Shown: positions 6,731 to 45,451 of the stretch, one piece after another
Layout of the letters: every line of letters starts with the position of its first letter
Position numbering within the stretch: position 1 is the first letter of the stretch
Assembly (NCBI GenBank): GCA_016869215.1
Contig: VGEP01000009.1
Coordinates: 62,001 to 126,000 of the forward strand
DNA length: 64,000 nt
Direction of reading: 5' to 3'
Source: Alphaproteobacteria bacterium
GTDB lineage: Bacteria > Pseudomonadota > Alphaproteobacteria > Rhizobiales > Xanthobacteraceae
The notes under the pieces: generated by a model
Database searches by the model: none
What the model was told of the DNA's origin: nothing
The model's input: only the letters and a program-made list of their open reading frames with translations
Translations under genes and position numbers: made by a program

Positions 6731-7732
6731 CCCGAACGCCTCCGCCAGCAGTTCGTAGCAGTGCTTGCGCGCCTCGTGGTCGTAGATCATCGAAGTCACC
6801 ATCACCTCGTCGGCCTGCGTCGCCTCGATCAGCGGCGCCATGTGCGCCATCACTCTGTCCTTGCCGCCGACCACCAGCCGCGCACGGTTGCGCGCGACCC
6901 AGGCGCGGTCGGTAGCCGTGTACTCGTGCGCCGCCGCCTCTTCCGGGCTCGGGATCGGCTGGAACACGCCCTGCCGCCGCCGCGCGAAATTGAGGTCGAC
7001 CGAACTGGCCAACCGCTCGGCTTCGTCGTCGGTGTCGGCGCAGACGACGTGCAGCGCCAGGATCGCGAGCGGCGTCGGCCGCTGCGGCGACGGCCGGAAC
7101 TGGGCGCGATACATCGTCATCGGCGCAACCGGATCGAAATCGGAGAAGTGATGTGCGAACGAAAAGCCCGCGCCGACATGGGCCGCGAGCTGCGCGCTGT
7201 AGTCGCTCGAACCGAGCAGGTAGATCGGCGGCAGCGCCACGTCCTGCGGCATCGCCTGCACCTTCCGGAACGGATGGCTTTCGGGAAAGCCGCGCTGTTC
7301 GAACAGCAGCAGCTCCTGGAAGCGTTCGAGGAAATCGTCGCTTGCCGGATCGTCCTGGCGCCGCCGCAGGGCGTACGACGTTACCGGGTCGGTGCCGGGT
7401 GCGCGGCCTAGTCCGAGATCGATACGGCCGGGGAACAGGCCCTCCAGCACCTTGTAGCGTTCCGCGACCTGCAGCGGAGCGTGATTGGGCAGCATCACGC
7501 CGCCGGAGCCGACGCGCATGCGCTCCGTCACGGCGGCGATCTGGCCGATCATGATGTCGGGCGCCGAGCTTGCGATGTTGGGCAGGTTGTGATGCTCGGC
7601 CACCCAGTAGCGCGCGAAGCCGAGGCGGTCGGCGAGCCTGGCAAGATCGAGGCTGTTGCGCAGCGCCTGCGCTCCGGAGATTCCGGTGGTCACGGGCGAC
7701 AGATCGAGGACGGACAGGGGACGCATGCGCAC
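6725..7732 (-). CDS. LLM-class (luciferase-like) flavin-dependent oxidoreductase
   Basis: 335 residues, the size of single-component bacterial-luciferase-like monooxygenases of the YhbW/LuxA-like group. Recognisable blocks are [12 protein letters not shown] at the start, the RYWVAEHHN motif, the [16 protein letters not shown] strand-loop, [31 protein letters not shown] and the final [14 protein letters not shown]. These place FMN/F420-type flavin at the barrel mouth; substrate unknown. The last codon and stop come from the dispersed repeat, so the C-terminus may have been redefined by that insertion. Confidence 0.9.
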
Positions 7733-7792
7733 AGTTAGAGCATGTCCGCGCGATTTGGGAACAGGTCTTCCGGGCGCGGAGCGCCGCGGCGG

Positions 7793-8656
7793 TCAGTTGG
7801 AGAACGGAAAGCCGAACGGATCCTGCGCCGCCCGCTGCACGGGGCGGGCGCGCTTCTTCTTTGGCGCCGGCTCGGCCACCCGCGGTCTTGGCGTGGGCAC
7901 GGTAGCTGCCACGGGCTGCTGATTGTCGTTCGCGACGGCGGAACCGTCGGTCGCGGGCGCGGCCTCCGGCGTTGCGGCTGCGGGAACCGGCGCCGGATCG
8001 GACGCAGCCGCGGCGTCTGGTGCGGCAGGAACGGCCGGGGGCTGCGTCACGCTGCCGGTGACGATGGCCGGCGCGGCCTCGGCTGCCGCTGGCTCGCCAT
8101 CGGCGGCCGGCTTGGGCTTGGTAGCGGGAACCGCGGGCGGCGCTGCGGGCTCGGTCGCCGTCGCGGGCACGACGTCGGACTCGAGCGCGCCGGCGGTCGG
8201 CGGTTCCGCCGCGGAATCGTCGAGTCGGTCAGGTTGCGCCTCTGGCTCCGGCGGTGGGTCGTCCGGCGTGGCGCGGGTTGTCACGTCGGGATCGATGGCG
8301 GCCACCGCCGGTGGCGGGGCCTGCTGCTCCGCGAGTGGCAGCGGGTGGGGCAGGGCGGCGTCGATGCTGCCTGGGCTCTGCGAGTCGATGCCGGCTGCGG
8401 GCGGTGTCAGGCTGACCGGCAGCGGGGCGAGTGCGCTGTTGCCGCCCACGAACCGCAGATCGTACACGATGGGCGACGCCAGACGTAGTCCCGGCGGCTC
8501 GGCGAGCGCGCCGGCGGGCAGCGCTGCCGCGTGCGCGGAGGCGATCGGCATCGACGCATGGACGTGATGCAGGGTCGCGGCCAGCCGCAAGCCCGCAAAC
8601 ACCACCACAAAACCGCACAGGAACGCCGCAACGATAAGCCGGAAACTCGGAAGCAT
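7793..8656 (-). CDS. Pro/Ala-rich single-pass membrane protein
   Basis: 287 residues. One N-terminal transmembrane segment (about 3-27, MLPSFRLIVAAFLCGFVVVF) leads into a long periplasmic, low-complexity Pro/Ala/Glu-rich region and a short basic C-terminus (KKKRARPVQ...FGFPF). I do not recognise a domain; the layout resembles linker-type cell-envelope proteins. The ATG at 8656 follows GAGGTGAG at good spacing; a frame extension to 8941 overlaps the divergent gene and is rejected. Composition alone could make this a fast-evolving protein. Confidence 0.65.
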   Translation of the reverse strand: MLPSFRLIVAAFLCGFVVVFAGLRLAATLHHVHASMPIASAHAAALPAGALAEPPGLRLASPIVYDLRFVGGNSALAPLPVSLTPPAAGIDSQSPGSIDAALPHPLPLAEQQAPPPAVAAIDPDVTTRATPDDPPPEPEAQPDRLDDSAAEPPTAGALESDVVPATATEPAAPPAVPATKPKPAADGEPAAAEAAPAIVTGSVTQPPAVPAAPDAAAASDPAPVPAAATPEAAPATDGSAVANDNQQPVAATVPTPRPRVAEPAPKKKRARPVQRAAQDPFGFPFSN

Positions 8657-39926: not shown

Positions 39927-39955
39927 TTGACTTACAATCACTTAGGTCATATCAA
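39927..39955 (+). promoter_or_regulatory. sigma-70 promoter of the riboswitch operon
   Basis: A -35 element TTGACT (39927-39932), a 17-base spacer and a -10 element TATCAA (39950-39955). It predicts a start near 39962, exactly at the 5' end of the aptamer. It lies in an AT-rich island unusual for this window. Confidence 0.7.
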
Positions 39956-39960
39956 GATAT

Positions 39961-40016
39961 CAGCGCCGATTTGAAGCGAGCAGCTTGCGGGCGCTTAACA
40001 AATGCAGCTAAAGCGG
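39961..40016 (+). ncRNA. SAM-II riboswitch aptamer
   Basis: The sequence follows the SAM-II (metA-type) consensus: GCGCCGATTTGA at the 5' end, CTTGCGGGCGC in the middle and AACAAATGCAGCTAAAG at the 3' end. P1 pairs GCGCC (39963-39967) with GGCGC (39990-39994). The pseudoknot pairs TTGC (39985-39988) with GCAG (40004-40007). It binds S-adenosylmethionine and switches off downstream expression in known cases, which are mainly methionine and sulfur genes of alphaproteobacteria. Here the downstream operon is an ABC importer of the sulfonate/nitrate/taurine class. The start lies about 114 bases further on, so the effect may be on transcription. Confidence 0.92.
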
Positions 40017-40021
40017 TCGGG

Positions 40022-40052
40022 GCCCGCCCCGTCGCAAAGCTGACGGGCGGGC
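40022..40052 (+). terminator. hairpin between aptamer and importer (expression platform candidate)
   Basis: GCCCGCCCCGTC (40022-40033) pairs with GACGGGCGGGC (40042-40052), one bulged C, loop GCAAAGCT, followed by AAATTCTTG. It lies six bases after the aptamer. It may be an intrinsic terminator or a pause hairpin; the T-tract is poor. Confidence 0.45.
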
Positions 40053-40129
40053 AAATTCTTGTCCGCCTCCATCAACCGCGGCAACGCGCCCCTTGGGCGC
40101 GAACGTCCGCACTTTGTCTGGAGGTTGCA

Positions 40130-41110
40130 GTGTCCACTCTGTCTCGTCGTGTTCTCATCGCCGGGTTTGCGTTCGGCGCAATGCTGCCGGCCGCGGCGGC
40201 GTTCGCGTCCGAAAAGCCGAAGGAAATCCGCATCGACTGGGCGACCTACAATCCGGTCTCGCTCCTGCTCAAGGACAAGGGGCTGCTGGAAAAGGAGTTC
40301 GCCAAGGACGGCATCGCCGTGCGCTGGGTGCGGACCGTGTCGTCCAGCAACGCGCTGCAGTTCCTCAACGCCGGCTCGATCGACTTCGGCTCGACCGCGG
40401 GCTCTGCGGCGCTGGTCGCCAAGATCAACGGCAATCCGATCAAGTCGATCTACACCTATTCGCGGCCGGAATGGACCGCGCTCGTGGCCGCCAAGAACAG
40501 TAAGATTGCGAAGGTTGCGGACCTCAAGGGCAAGAAGGTCGCGATGGTGCGCGGCACCGATCCGCACATCTTCCTGGTGCGCGCGCTGCTGGGCGCGGGC
40601 CTGACCGACAAGGACATCCAGCCGGTGCTGGTGCAACAGCATGCCGACGGCGGCACCGCACTGCTCCGCGGCGACATCGACGCCTGGGCCGGCCTCGATC
40701 CGATGATGGCGCAGCACGAGGTGCAGGACGGCGTGCGGCTGTTCTTCCGCAAGCCCGAGGCCAACACCTGGGGAATTCTCAACACCCGCGAGGACTTCCT
40801 TCAGAAGCATCCGGACGTCGTGCGCCGCGTGCTCGCGGTCTACGAGGAGGCGCGCAAGCACGCGCTCGCCAACTATCCGGAGCTGAAGAAGGTGTTCATC
40901 GCCGTGACCAATCTGTCCGACGCGGTGGTCGACAAGCAGCTCAAGGAGCGCACCGGCCTGACGTTCAACCGCGTCGGCTCCGAGCAGCGCGAGTCGATCC
41001 TCGAAGCCGGCCTAGCGCTGCAGAAGGGCGGCGTGATCCGGGCCAACGTCGACGTGCGCAAGGCGCTGGACGACCTGATCGACAGCCGCCACGTCGCGGT
41101 CACCAACTGA
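40130..41110 (+). CDS. ABC importer substrate-binding protein (SsuA/TauA/NrtA type)
   Basis: 326 residues. The GTG start at 40130 follows GGAGG with a five-base gap. A signal peptide (MSTLSRRVLIAGFAFGAMLP) is followed by the fold of sulfonate/nitrate/taurine binding proteins: IRIDWATYNPVSLLLKDKGL, VRTVSSSNALQFLNAGSIDF, STAGSAALVAKINGNPIKSI and GILNTREDFLQKHPDVVRRV. The riboswitch upstream makes a sulfur ligand such as an alkanesulfonate or methionine-related compound likely, but the ligand is not shown. First gene of a permease-ATPase operon. Confidence 0.9.
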   Translation: MSTLSRRVLIAGFAFGAMLPAAAAFASEKPKEIRIDWATYNPVSLLLKDKGLLEKEFAKDGIAVRWVRTVSSSNALQFLNAGSIDFGSTAGSAALVAKINGNPIKSIYTYSRPEWTALVAAKNSKIAKVADLKGKKVAMVRGTDPHIFLVRALLGAGLTDKDIQPVLVQQHADGGTALLRGDIDAWAGLDPMMAQHEVQDGVRLFFRKPEANTWGILNTREDFLQKHPDVVRRVLAVYEEARKHALANYPELKKVFIAVTNLSDAVVDKQLKERTGLTFNRVGSEQRESILEAGLALQKGGVIRANVDVRKALDDLIDSRHVAVTN

Positions 41111-41233
41111 CGCGGAGTTGATCCGAATCGGGCCGCCGTCCAGTCGACCCGTCCCCGGTGACCCGGCACTGCGGCGATGTCGGCGGGTGGCGGCCCGAAC
41201 CAAAGATGAAATCGCAAACCGTGAGGCGCGATC

Positions 41234-42067
41234 ATGTCTCTCGTCCTGACGTCCACGCGCAATGAATGGGCCGCCGTCCGCGGCGAAGCCGCACGGGCGG
41301 GACTGGCCCTGCTTCGCCCCGGCCTCGGCCTGATCCTGCCGGTCGGTCTCGCGCTGTTGTGGGAGCTTGCGGTCTATGCCGGCTGGTCGACGGGCCGGCT
41401 CGTTCCGCCGCCCTCGGTCGTGTTCGCGACCTTCGCCGAGCTGTGGAGCGCCGGCGAATTGCAGACGCACGCGCTCGCCACCATGTCGCGCGTCGCGGCC
41501 GGCTTCGTGTGCGGTGTTGCGGCTGGCACGGTTCTCGGGGCGATCACCGGCTATTCCATGCTGTCGCACCGGCTGGTCGATCCGACCTTGCAGGCGCTGC
41601 GGTCGATTCCGTCCATCGCCTGGGTGCCGCTGTTCATCCTGTGGTTCGGCATCTTCGAGGCCTCGAAGATCATCCTGATTGCGGTCGGCGTCTTCTTCCC
41701 GGTCTATCTCGGCGTGATGGGCGCGGTGATTTCCGTGGATCGCAAGATCGTCGAGGTCGGGCGCGCGTTCCGGCTGTCGGGCTTCGCCATGGTCCGGCGA
41801 ATCCTGCTGCCGGCGGTGCTGCCGGCTTACGTGCTGTCGCTGCGCGCGGGGCTCGGGCTCGGCTGGATGTTCGTGGTGGCTGCCGAGTTTCTTGGCGCGT
41901 CCACCGGGTTGGGCTTCCTGCTGATCGACGGCCAGCAGCTCGGCAAGCCCGCGACCATTGTTGCGGCGATCGTCGCGTTCGCGATCCTCGGCAAGGCGAC
42001 CGATGCGCTGCTCGCACTCGCGACCGCGCCGCTGCTGCGCTGGGAAGACCGGCACGGGAGGCGGTGA
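41234..42067 (+). CDS. ABC importer permease (SsuC/TauC type)
   Basis: 277 residues, six transmembrane segments. The coupling motif near 180-200 (GRAFRLSGFAMVRRILLPAV) and RSIPSIAWVPLFILWFGIFE are typical of the SsuC/TauC family. It starts after GAGGCGCGATC, 123 bases past the binding protein, and its TGA stop overlaps the ATPase ATG (TGATG), showing tight coupling. Confidence 0.93.
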   Translation: MSLVLTSTRNEWAAVRGEAARAGLALLRPGLGLILPVGLALLWELAVYAGWSTGRLVPPPSVVFATFAELWSAGELQTHALATMSRVAAGFVCGVAAGTVLGAITGYSMLSHRLVDPTLQALRSIPSIAWVPLFILWFGIFEASKIILIAVGVFFPVYLGVMGAVISVDRKIVEVGRAFRLSGFAMVRRILLPAVLPAYVLSLRAGLGLGWMFVVAAEFLGASTGLGFLLIDGQQLGKPATIVAAIVAFAILGKATDALLALATAPLLRWEDRHGRR

Positions 42068-42858
42068 TGCTGACACTCGACCGCGTCGGCAAGACCTATT
42101 CCGGCGGCCTGCGCGCATTGGACGGCGTTTCGCTCGACATTGCGCCCGGCGAGATCGTCGTTGTGATCGGCGGCTCGGGCTGCGGCAAGTCCACGCTGCT
42201 GCGCGCCATCAGCGGTCTCGATGCGCCGAGCGACGGCAGCGTTCGGCTCGAGGGCGAGCGGATCGTGGCGCCGCACGAAAAGATCGGCATCGTGTTCCAG
42301 GAGCCGCGCCTGCTGCCGTGGCTCAGCGTCGCAGGCAACGTCGGCTTCGGGCTGGAGCACCGGCCGAAACGCGAGCGCGAGGAGCGTGTGGCTGCTGCGC
42401 TTGCGCGCGTGGGACTGGCGGACAAGGCGGGCGTCTGGCCGCGGCAGCTTTCCGGCGGGCAGGCGCAGCGCGTTGCGATCGCGCGCGCGCTGGTGCCGCG
42501 CCCCCAGGTGCTTTTGCTCGACGAGCCGTTCTCCGCGCTCGACGCCTTCACCCGCGCCGACTTGCAGGATCACCTGCTCGACCTGTGGGCGGACGGCAGG
42601 CCGACGCTGGTCGTCGTGACCCACGACGTCGACGAGGCCATCGTATTGGCCGACCGGATTGTGGTGATGCAGCCGCGCCCCGGCCGGATTTCCGAAGAGA
42701 TCGCGGTCGATCTGCCGCGTCCGCGCGATCGCCAGTCGGCGCCGTTCGACGTCGCCAAGCGCCGGGTCTTGGCCGCTCTCGACCGCTCGCTCGACCGTGC
42801 CGCTGAGCCCGCGGATGCCGGCCAGCGCGCGGCGGCGGGCGGGGCGCTGTGGTGGTGA
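42067..42858 (+). CDS. ABC importer ATP-binding protein (SsuB/TauB type)
   Basis: 263 residues. Walker A VVIGGSGCGKSTLLRA, Q-loop GIVFQEPRLLPWLSV, signature QLSGGQAQRVAIARAL, Walker B VLLLDEPFSALD, switch His VVTHDVDEAIVLA. The C-terminal tail (RDRQSAPFDVAKRRVLAALD) is that of the sulfonate/nitrate group. It starts one base inside the permease stop codon. The alcohol dehydrogenase starts 122 bases on; co-transcription is possible. Confidence 0.95.
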   Translation: MLTLDRVGKTYSGGLRALDGVSLDIAPGEIVVVIGGSGCGKSTLLRAISGLDAPSDGSVRLEGERIVAPHEKIGIVFQEPRLLPWLSVAGNVGFGLEHRPKREREERVAAALARVGLADKAGVWPRQLSGGQAQRVAIARALVPRPQVLLLDEPFSALDAFTRADLQDHLLDLWADGRPTLVVVTHDVDEAIVLADRIVVMQPRPGRISEEIAVDLPRPRDRQSAPFDVAKRRVLAALDRSLDRAAEPADAGQRAAAGGALWW

Positions 42859-42980: not shown

Positions 42981-44036
42981 ATGCGCAGCTTTCAGATTTG
43001 CCAGTGCGGCGAGCCGCTTCAATGCGTCGAATGCTCAACACCGCAACCCAAGGGGACCGAGGTGCTTCTGAGGATGTTGGCCGCCGGCGTTTGCCACAGC
43101 GACCTGCATCTGTCTGACGGCTATTTCGACCTGGGCGGCGGCAAGCGGCTCAGCGTCGTCGAGCGCGGCATGCGGCTGCCGGTGACGCTCGGCCATGAGA
43201 ACGTCGGCGAGGTCGTGGCGCTCGGGCCGCAGGCGAAGGGCGTCAAGCTTGGCGACCGCGTGCTGGTCGACCCGTGGATGGGCTGCGGCGAATGCCGCGT
43301 CTGCCGGCGCGGCGACGAGAACCTCTGCACCAGGCCGTCGAGTCTCGGCGTGTTCCGCGACGGCGGCTACAGCGACCATCTGCTGGTGCCGCATCCTCGC
43401 TATCTGTTCGACATCGGCGATCTGCCGCCGGAGCGCGTTGCGCCGCTCGCCTGTTCCGGCGTCACCACCTACAGCGCGCTCAAGAAGGTCGGGCCAGCGC
43501 TCACGACCGATCCCATCGTGATTGTCGGCGCCGGCGGGCTCGGCCTGATGTGCCTCGCGCTGCACCGCGCGATGGGCGGCCACAGCGCCGTCGTCGTCGA
43601 CATCGATCCAGCCAAGCGCGAAGCGGCGAGGCGCGCGGGCGCCGCTGCGGTGGTCGACGGCGCTGCGCCGGACGCCGCAAAGCAGATAGTCGCTGCGACC
43701 GGCGGCGGGGCATGGGCGGTGATCGATCTCGTGGGCTCGACGGCGTCCGTACGCCTCGGGCTGGACAGCCTGATCAAGGGCGGAAAATTGATCCTCGTCG
43801 GCCTCTACGGCGGTGACATCACCCTGTCGCTGCCGCCGTTCCCGATGAAGGCGATCGCAATCCAGGGCTCTTACACCGGCAGCCTGAGCGAGACCGCGGA
43901 ATTGCTCGATCTGGTCCGCCGCACCGGTCTGCCGCCGGTCCCGGTTGCGACCCGGCCGCTCGGCGACGTGAACGCCGTGCTCGACGAACTGCGTGCCGGC
44001 AAGGTAATCGGACGCGTGGTGCTGACGAACGCTTGA
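42981..44036 (+). CDS. zinc-dependent alcohol dehydrogenase
   Basis: 351 residues, MDR family with both zinc sites. The catalytic site uses Cys and Asp in GVCHSDLH, the His of GHENVGEVV and a later Cys (LACSGVTTYSA). The structural site has four Cys in GCGECRVCRRGDENLC. The cofactor-binding loop is VGAGGLGLMCLALHRAMGG with Asp in VVVDIDPAKRE, favouring NAD. ATG after GGGAGCGACC. Coding upstream to 42849 is rejected. Role in the sulfur operon is unclear. Confidence 0.92.
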   Translation: MRSFQICQCGEPLQCVECSTPQPKGTEVLLRMLAAGVCHSDLHLSDGYFDLGGGKRLSVVERGMRLPVTLGHENVGEVVALGPQAKGVKLGDRVLVDPWMGCGECRVCRRGDENLCTRPSSLGVFRDGGYSDHLLVPHPRYLFDIGDLPPERVAPLACSGVTTYSALKKVGPALTTDPIVIVGAGGLGLMCLALHRAMGGHSAVVVDIDPAKREAARRAGAAAVVDGAAPDAAKQIVAATGGGAWAVIDLVGSTASVRLGLDSLIKGGKLILVGLYGGDITLSLPPFPMKAIAIQGSYTGSLSETAELLDLVRRTGLPPVPVATRPLGDVNAVLDELRAGKVIGRVVLTNA

Positions 44037-44056: not shown

Positions 44057-44566
44057 ATGGATGCCAGCGAACTGCGCGCGATGCAGGCGCCGATCAAGGA
44101 TCGCTACCGCAGCGATCCCGGTACGGCGCTGATCACGCTGAAGGCGCGCGGTGCGCTCGACGACGCCAGCATCGCTTGCAAGGTCGAGACCGGCCGCGCG
44201 CTCGCGGTCGCGGGTCTGCATCCGGCGACCGGCGGTTCGGGCTTGGAGCTCTGCTCCGGCGACATGCTGCTGGAGGCGCTGGTGGCCTGCGCCGGCGTCA
44301 CGCTCAAGGCGGTTTCGACGGCGCTCGGCATTCCACTCAAGTCCGGCGCGGTATCTGCCGAGGGCGACCTCGATTTCCGCGGCACGCTGGGCGTTGCCAA
44401 GGATGCTCCGGTCGGGTTCCGCGAAATCCGGCTGCATTTCGAGGTCGAAACCGACGCACCGCAAGAACAGCTCGATCAGCTGCTGAAACTGACCGAGCGC
44501 TATTGCGTGGTCTATCAGACCATCGCCAAGGGACCGCCGGTGGACATCAAGCTCCGACGCGTGTGA
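44057..44566 (+). CDS. OsmC-family peroxiredoxin-like protein
   Basis: 169 residues. The two Cys of OsmC/Ohr proteins are present: Cys78 in ALVACAGVTLKAV and Cys150 in TERYCVVYQT. They reduce organic hydroperoxides in the family. Start after AGGGAGAATCGGA. It follows the dehydrogenase by 20 bases and is probably co-transcribed. Confidence 0.88.
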   Translation: MDASELRAMQAPIKDRYRSDPGTALITLKARGALDDASIACKVETGRALAVAGLHPATGGSGLELCSGDMLLEALVACAGVTLKAVSTALGIPLKSGAVSAEGDLDFRGTLGVAKDAPVGFREIRLHFEVETDAPQEQLDQLLKLTERYCVVYQTIAKGPPVDIKLRRV

Positions 44567-44644: not shown

Positions 44645-45451
44645 ATGTCCCCCGATCTCCTGTTCTGGCTCTCGCTCGCGCTGAAGATGGCCGTTACGGC
44701 GGGCTTCGTGATCGTCGCCGCCATGGTGGCCGAGCGCGCAGGGCCGGCCATCGGTGCGCTGGTGGCGACGCTGCCGATCGCCGCTGGGCCCGCGTACTTC
44801 TTCCTCGCGCTCGACTTCGACGCGAATTTCATCTCGCAGAGTGCCATCGGCAGCATTGCGGCGCATGGCGCGACGGCGGTGTTCTCGCTCGCCTACGTGT
44901 TGCTGGCGCAACGCTTCGGCATTGCGGTGAGCGTGCCGGGCGCCGTTGCCGTGTGGTTTGCGGTCGCATACTGGCTGCGCGGCATGGAATGGACGTTCCT
45001 CACCGTCGCCGCCGCCAATCTCGCGCTGTTCGCAGTCTGCATTCCGCTCACCGCGCGCTTCCGGCACGTCGCGATGCCGCCGATCGTGCGCAAATGGTAC
45101 GACGTGCCGTTGCGCGCCGCGATGGTGGCCTGCCTTGTGGCCGCGGTGGTCGGGCTGTCGGGCCGCGTCGGTCCGACGGTGACCGGGTTGCTTGCGGTCT
45201 ATCCGATCGTGATGACCAGCCTGATGCTGATCTTCCAGTCGCGCGTCGGCGGACCCGCGACTGCGGCGTTGATCGCCAACACCATGTGGGGCCTGGTCGG
45301 CTTCAGCGCCTGCCTGTTCACGGTGCATCTGGCGACCGTGCCGTTCGGCGTGGCGGCGGGACTTGTACTGTCGCTAGCCGTGTCGGTCGGATGGAACCTG
45401 ATGCTGTGGACTTTGCGCGGGCGTGCGCCGTTCCGCACACGCCCGCGCTGA
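44645..45451 (+). CDS. hypothetical multi-pass membrane protein
   Basis: 268 residues with eight or nine hydrophobic segments and few charged residues. The N-terminal half contains GPAIGALVATLPIAAGPAYF and the C-terminal half GLLAVYPIVMTSLMLIF, which look like two similar halves (each with Gly-Ala-Leu-x-A-x-x-P-type helices). No motif identifies a transporter family for certain. Last gene of the riboswitch-side run, convergent with the Bug pair. Confidence 0.6.
   Translation: MSPDLLFWLSLALKMAVTAGFVIVAAMVAERAGPAIGALVATLPIAAGPAYFFLALDFDANFISQSAIGSIAAHGATAVFSLAYVLLAQRFGIAVSVPGAVAVWFAVAYWLRGMEWTFLTVAAANLALFAVCIPLTARFRHVAMPPIVRKWYDVPLRAAMVACLVAAVVGLSGRVGPTVTGLLAVYPIVMTSLMLIFQSRVGGPATAALIANTMWGLVGFSACLFTVHLATVPFGVAAGLVLSLAVSVGWNLMLWTLRGRAPFRTRPR

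Follow-up and report, generated by a model that had tools for sequence, protein, structure and literature searches.

The stretch of DNA analysed here (hereafter, the window) comprises 64,000 nucleotides of an alphaproteobacterium of the Xanthobacteraceae (contig VGEP01000009.1, positions 62,001 to 126,000), and the subject of this report is the leader of an ATP-binding cassette (ABC) importer operon within it, in which an earlier note, made from the letters alone, had recognized a SAM-II riboswitch, an RNA responding to S-adenosylmethionine (SAM). The leader begins with promoter-like boxes, runs through the aptamer into a series of hairpins, and ends with a Shine-Dalgarno (SD) sequence, the complement of which (anti-SD) lies upstream of it. 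There follow genes for a substrate-binding protein, the GTG start of which is the analyst's choice, for a permease and for an ATPase, and behind these come a dehydrogenase-like gene, an OsmC-like gene and a conserved frame of 268 residues (Table 1).

Table 1. Features of the leader and of the genes behind it, in positions of the window (the SAM mimic is the in silico blocking of the P2 strands).
Feature	Position	Strand	Details
Promoter-like boxes TTGACT-17-TATCAA	39927..39955	+	TTGACT at 39927, TATCAA at 39950, P1 at 39962
SAM-II (RF00521) match	39953..40032	+	P1 starts at 39962; GCUAAAGCG ends at 40015; 41.9 bits
Anti-aptamer hairpin P4 around P3	40005..40042	+	CAGCU (40005-40009) with AGCUG (40038-40042), enclosing GCG/CGC and CGGGG/CCCCG
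Competing hairpin T (GCCCGCCCCGUC/GACGGGCGGGC)	40022..40052	+	Weak U-rich stretch behind; 0.96 in the window without SAM mimic
Hairpin D3 (GGCGGGC...GUCCGCC)	40046..40067	+	Overlaps T and anti-SD; arm-swap test
Anti-SD CCUCCAU	40066..40072	+	Pairs with SD; arm-swap test
SD UGGAGG	40119..40124	+	Sequence
Substrate-binding protein, SsuA family, 326 aa	40130..41110	+	TIGR01728, 210.5 bits vs 163.5; PF09084
ABC permease, SsuC-like	41234..42067	+	PF00528; best NCBIfam PRK11365, 176.8 vs cut-off 347
ABC ATPase, SsuB-like	42067..42858	+	PF00005; best NCBIfam PRK11247, below cut-off
Zinc alcohol dehydrogenase-like gene	42981..44036	+	PF08240, PF00107
OsmC-like gene	44057..44566	+	PF02566
Conserved 268-aa frame	44645..45451		In 65 of 86 loci; no Pfam match at E 0.001

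The earlier note had claimed a SAM-II aptamer before the importer and had named a search with RF00521 among the ways to check it. In a cmscan search of the whole window, RF00521 matched at that place with 41.9 bits against a gathering score of 36 (E 4.6e-6; E 8.7e-8 for the same match in an Rfam search of the whole genome), this match and a tRNA being the two Rfam matches over cut-off in the window. The P1 helix is AGCGCC (39962-39967) pairing with GGCGCU, and the P2b bases UUGC and GC(U)AA are present. So are the bases of the SAM pocket, given as U10-12, U20, U21, G22, C23 and G42-A47 in passages of PMC3764141 and found here in GAUUUG, UUGC and GCUAAA. On sequence grounds, the match before the importer is therefore confirmed as a genuine SAM-II aptamer. 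The genome (5.15 Mb in 123 contigs) was found to hold one further SAM-II, which scores 78.1 bits, so that the window's aptamer reaches about half of the score of the met-gene switch; the gene behind this second aptamer is recognized as that of the O-succinylhomoserine sulfhydrylase MetZ (709 bits vs a cut-off of 675). The usual context of SAM-II is such a gene of methionine or SAM biosynthesis downstream, although this is not a structural requirement, whereas the window's aptamer precedes an ABC importer instead.

In 7 of the 11 genomes of the genus, a close ortholog of the binding protein was found (70-100% identity, counting that of the window), and each of the seven is preceded by the aptamer with a score above the Rfam cut-off. 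A scan of genome contigs retained the 80 best importer loci, 18 of which have the aptamer core no more than 400 bases upstream, as judged by a pattern allowing up to 3 substitutions. Rfam was applied to 24 further importer loci, which, the window apart, were chosen for the core motif in the leader and of which about 22 are distinct (two pairs of handles, L034/L063 and L037/L135, probably each stand for one record). In all 24, a match was obtained at the same position; the cut-off was reached by 15, and the other 9 stayed under it (27.7-34.3 bits, E <= 0.031). Since these nine leaders fall short of it, the Rfam cut-off misses part of a conserved SAM-II subgroup. Finally, a pattern specific to the variant, GCGCCGATTTGAN{4,9}GCTTGCGGG, was run against 391 genomes of 47 genera sampled from the family, with the reversed pattern as the control: the former occurs at 62 places in 61 genomes and 17 genera, the latter at 0. 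Behind the 62 places lie 46 importers, spread over 16 of the 47 genera, 13 metallophosphoesterase-like genes and 1 SfnG gene, while 1 place is cut (L188, described below) and 1 is false (L241 in genome G576, a coding-like sequence without GCUAAA). The scores over cut-off at all seven genus orthologs and the count of 62 against none show that the aptamer is not a chance match.

How this aptamer relates to those of methionine genes was examined in a set of 21 importer-type and 9 met-gene aptamers, in which 10 pairs were tested. These pairs form in 99.7% of the cells (99.4% for P1 alone), while versions slid along the alignment reach at most 54.0%, and the P2b pairs are invariant in all 30 rows. 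P1 is AGCGCC/GGCGCU in the importer type and CGUGGU/GCCACG in the met-gene type of the same bacterial family, with 3 of the 6 pairs differing on both sides. Two measures, the number of cells changed on both sides and the covariation score, are higher than in any of 500 shuffles; two others, the pairs with a both-side change and the further pair types, bring no distinction (480 and 500 of the 500 shuffles as high). The P1 changes are a single inherited difference between two aptamer groups. An RNAalifold structure made from the met-gene aptamers alone differed from the SAM-II fold, and that model was not used.

With the SAM-II (SAM_alpha, RF00521) found before metA, metX and metY/metZ, the importer variant shares P1, P2b and the bases that contact SAM, and the promoter lies a few bases upstream in both, to go by the passages on the met-gene switches in PMC1273637. 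The variant differs in P1, the sequence of which is exchanged pair by pair, in P2a, which is apparently shorter, in an added anti-aptamer hairpin, and in having an importer rather than a biosynthetic gene behind it. The RNA belongs to SAM-II, and what looks novel about it is the distinct lineage of its aptamer, together with the platform and the target.

Upstream of the aptamer, the promoter that the earlier note had proposed is present as boxes where it had placed them, and a TTGAC box lies 34-38 bases upstream of P1 in 22 of 23 leaders (TTTAC in L039). A generic promoter scan, the rule of which demands a second hexamer ending in T, lists nothing at 39927-39955. In L068, L073 and L134, promoter-like boxes are retained without the aptamer, and a short leader leads straight to the SD.

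Downstream of the aptamer, the GC hairpin of the earlier note turns out to be several GC hairpins, some of them mutually exclusive; the generic scan gives a single terminator-like site at 40094-40109 (0.4 expected by chance), which is not the hairpin directly behind the aptamer. In the hairpin termed P4, (C)AGCU of the 3' strand of the aptamer, that is, of the SAM-binding strand, has its partner in an AGCUG further downstream, the two enclosing a GC-rich inner stem, and P4 and the P2 pseudoknot are mutually exclusive. Folding of the excised segment gave P4 in 22 of 23 leaders, the exception being L074, where the segment was cut short and where P4 reaches 0.98 in the whole-leader ensemble. The 3' arm of P4 overlaps the rival hairpin T, which in the window is of similar stability (-20.4 kcal/mol for P4 vs -22.2 for T), and the 3' arm of a further hairpin, D3, runs into CCUCCA, the complement of the SD UGGAGG. 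These pairings were put to an arm-swap test, in which the arms of each leader were compared with arms exchanged between leaders over 5000 permutations, relatedness being ignored (22 leaders; L065 lacks the D3 element and was not used for D3, T and SD). Own arms proved better than swapped ones for D3 (3 of 5000 permutations as low) and for SD/anti-SD (18 of 5000).

The importer itself conforms to the sulfonate type that the earlier note had read from the sequence: its 326-residue binding protein scores over the cut-off of the SsuA family and its partners are SsuB- and SsuC-like, features that it has in common with the SsuABC importer (SsuA of X. citri and E. coli). An AlphaFold2 model of the binding protein had a mean predicted local distance difference test score of 60.5 and was too poor for a fold search. 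A link to the importers of selenoproteins (Sao) through OsmC and NCBIfam was also considered and dropped, the scores being far below the cut-offs. Relatives of the binding protein occur in 36 plasmid records, of which 11 annotated regions (43-68% identity) were read, chosen for their annotation and not at random. Eight of the 11 have sulfur-specific neighbours: ssuD in L146, L176 and L178; sfnB in L176, L178 and L180; tauA, cysE and metQ in L143; tauD and a choline sulfatase in L177; an arylsulfatase in L179; and an NtaA/DmoA monooxygenase with a TauD-like dioxygenase in L181. Two more have luciferase-like monooxygenase (LLM) oxidoreductases (L144, together with metQ, and L182), and L145 has none of these sulfur or LLM neighbours. 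These gene neighbourhoods support an organosulfur ligand for the window's importer.

The boxes, the aptamer, the mutually exclusive hairpins, the SD/anti-SD pair and the gene order are all there to be read in the DNA; from them, we infer that SAM would bind the RNA and that expression would be repressed at high SAM. The explanation preferred here, held with good though not full confidence, is that plentiful SAM acts through a SAM-II variant, transcribed from a promoter of its own, to repress an ABC importer for an organic sulfur compound. In the absence of SAM, P4, together with D3, would form during RNA synthesis and the importer would be expressed; in its presence, GCUAAAGC would be held in the P2 pseudoknot, P4 would be blocked and T would take over the 3' arm of P4. 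Expression might then fall through termination at T, through the freed CCUCCA covering the SD, or through both. The imported compound would be desulfurated in the cell, and its sulfur would pass into methionine via MetZ, the product of the one other gene found behind a SAM-II in the genome.

Three sets of findings weigh against this explanation, and they concern the folding of the leader, the ligand and the distribution of the switch. As regards folding, own arms are no better than swapped ones for P4, P3 and T (permutations as low: 774, 655 and 1063 of 5000). When whole leaders are folded at equilibrium without the SAM mimic, P4 reaches at least 0.5 in 12 of 23 leaders, and the window's own leader gives T at 0.96 and P4 at 0.03; since it favours T at equilibrium, any switch there would have to act during transcription. 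When the P2 strands are blocked, T goes up in 12 of the 23 leaders and down in 2, which speaks for the explanation, but the mean accessibility of the SD stays nearly static (0.19 to 0.17; down in 9 and up in 4 of the 23). A simple masking of the SD by SAM at equilibrium is therefore not borne out by whole-leader folding. Moreover, the tract behind T is not uniform, being U-rich in some leaders and a run of A in L064, L071 and L127, and the generic terminator scan does not list T.

Within the preferred explanation, these results bear on the question of whether control is mainly by transcription attenuation at T, with the SD/anti-SD helix incidental, a proposal to which we give slightly less than an even chance. 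It would fit the statement, in passages of Barrick and Breaker (PMC2258182), that the SAM-II of alpha- and betaproteobacteria is most often accompanied by terminators, the T run in the leader of sfnG described below, and the rise of T under the SAM mimic in about half of the leaders. However, a terminator of this kind sits poorly with the irregular U tract and the silence of the scan on T, and the SD/anti-SD helix that it would make incidental is supported by the arm-swap test.

As regards the ligand, SsuA and TauA hold the sulfonate by means of a Gln, according to passages of PMC3839906 and PMC6906117; this residue, Gln36 of X. citri SsuA, is Ala38 in the window's protein, and Ala38 is invariant in 23 aligned orthologs and in all 11 plasmid relatives, those linked to ssuD included. 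The importer clade is thus one with a changed pocket yet with organosulfur gene company. A further difference from the SsuABC system is that the genome has no full SsuD (best score 100.6 vs a cut-off of 518.2); nor does it have a full SfnG (best 183 vs 383), and no SsuD was seen among the neighbouring genes looked at in the window. The genome does contain 37 matches to the LLM monooxygenase family and one TauD-family dioxygenase. The earlier note had assigned a substrate class, a sulfur source or methionine precursor rather than nitrate or a thiamine precursor. This is the better reading in view of the organosulfur clusters of the plasmid relatives, the variant aptamer before sfnG and its conservation before the importer; given the Ala in the place of the SsuA Gln throughout the clade and the lack of a full SsuD or SfnG, the class is nevertheless narrowed and not assigned.

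A live rival is that the importer takes up methionine itself or a close derivative (a sulfoxide or S-methylmethionine) in place of a missing MetNIQ, the switch then exerting end-product control over uptake. We consider this unlikely, though well worth keeping in mind. In its favour, no match to MetQ/NlpA (PF03180) was found in the genome, whereas one is present in 7 of 14 control genomes; a weak match to SAM-II (27.7 bits) found with Rfam among 20 chosen genomes precedes, in another genome of the family, a MetN-like ATPase gene and a permease-like frame (L294 in G037:C27; the MetN-like gene, at 387 bits, falls short of the MetN cut-off, which is 499.7); and the genome lacks a full SsuD and SfnG. 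Yet three plasmid relatives stand in clusters that hold MetQ-family genes as well, two of these clusters also having ssuD, sfnB, tauA or cysE, and the binding protein belongs to the SsuA family and not to NlpA, PF03180 being absent among its four Pfam matches.

As regards distribution, the earlier note had suggested comparing homologous operons for a conserved riboswitch, and here the outcome is divided. Conservation holds in all seven genus orthologs and in 16 of the 47 genera, but at 62 of the 86 importer loci no switch was found, including, by pattern, every locus titled Bradyrhizobium, Afipia or Rhodopseudomonas. Rfam likewise finds no SAM-II in L068 and L073 at E 0.1, or in L134, L087, L081, L130, L091, L126 and L067 at the gathering score. 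It finds none in four plasmid loci of relatives or in L164 either, and the remaining loci scanned show no convincing core by pattern. Loose pattern matches in L144, L145, L146 and L164 were discarded, Rfam finding no SAM-II in them. When the binding proteins are set out in a quick tree (midpoint-rooted for drawing only), the presence of the switch, carried by 24 of the 86 loci, needs 4 changes. The rows that lack it include a single group of 58 (Bradyrhizobium, Afipia, Rhodopseudomonas and others), and the distribution is most simply read as that of an old switch lost a few times. That the aptamer is instead a degraded or fortuitous SAM-II left by rearrangement, with the importer no longer regulated, is very improbable: its low score beside the met-gene switch, its absence from several lineages and the failure of the window's leader to switch in the equilibrium fold would be in keeping with decay, but the core and the promoter spacing, like D3 and SD/anti-SD, recur across the 23 leaders, and 46 importer-linked copies are found across the family.

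The variant aptamer is also found before other genes. In one genome of the family, it lies upstream of a gene on the minus strand (L233, gene at 6819-7925) with 32.8 bits, below the cut-off; this gene encodes the dimethylsulfone monooxygenase SfnG (621 bits vs a cut-off of 383), and its leader has the plain shape of a terminator, a GC hairpin followed by seven T. Thirteen variant aptamers, all in the genus g24 (L189-L201, L235), directly precede a gene for a protein of about 245-260 residues that was labelled metallophosphoesterase-like by eye, one representative giving weak matches to phosphodiesterase models. Rfam recognizes SAM-II in 9 of these 13 (27.6-42.3 bits, 3 over the cut-off) and finds no match at E 0.1 in L195, L197, L198 and L199. 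In L188 (G245:C61), which has no Rfam match at E 0.1, the 3' half of the aptamer is broken by a GC-rich inverted repeat resembling a small insertion, and the contig ends downstream.

Behind the importer, the earlier note had supposed that the dehydrogenase and OsmC genes might be shut off with it, and their membership of the switched operon is putative. The gap between the ATPase and the dehydrogenase is 122 bases if the chosen start of the latter is right. With and without the switch, the order of the locus is kept as glnD reversed, importer, often dehydrogenase, OsmC, 268-aa frame and mutS reversed. The dehydrogenase is present in 13 of the 24 loci with the switch vs 4 of the 62 without, and OsmC lies behind the importer in 69 of the 86 loci (12 of 24 with the switch, 57 of 62 without), counts that are lower bounds, many loci ending at contig edges. 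A SAM switch ahead of osmC, as may hold in the window, is known from Candidatus Pelagibacter, where, according to passages of PMC5069961, osmC lies behind SAM-V and bhmT behind SAM-II and SAM-V, and where osmC is the most induced transcript of the exponential phase under sulfur limitation. The same passages mention no importer in the osmC unit, whereas the window has an importer, and its OsmC is only presumed to belong to the unit.

The methionine-pathway context of SAM-II was described by Corbino et al. (PMC1273637) and Leyn et al. (PMC4239095), and passages of the latter name metY, metA, metX, metW, metC and hom as its targets. Searches of the open-access literature, by title, abstract and passage, brought up no earlier report of SAM-II ahead of an organosulfur importer or of sfnG. 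A broader and decidedly more tentative proposal, which we think somewhat less probable than its opposite, is that SAM-II was recruited in this family, via a distinct aptamer lineage and an anti-aptamer platform, into a regulon for scavenging organic sulfur that would include the importer, SfnG in one genome, and perhaps OsmC and the metallophosphoesterase of g24; OsmC would then be a sulfur-scavenging enzyme for which control by SAM arose here and, independently, in SAR11. On the preferred explanation, sulfur uptake in soil bacteria related to Rhodoplanes may be under the SAM control known for methionine synthesis. If it is, the SAM-II regulon would be widened from methionine synthesis to organic sulfur uptake, an ambiguous clade of SsuA-type importers would acquire a regulatory handle, and OsmC and the metallophosphoesterase would be tied to sulfur physiology.

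Two minor observations may be added. In the same Rfam search of 20 chosen genomes, further weak SAM-II matches lie before unnamed genes in L291, L293 and L295. Behind the importer genes of L135 (7919-8001) and L037 (463-545), there is a match to the Brucella small RNA CI27 at 30.4 bits, below the cut-off of 59.8.

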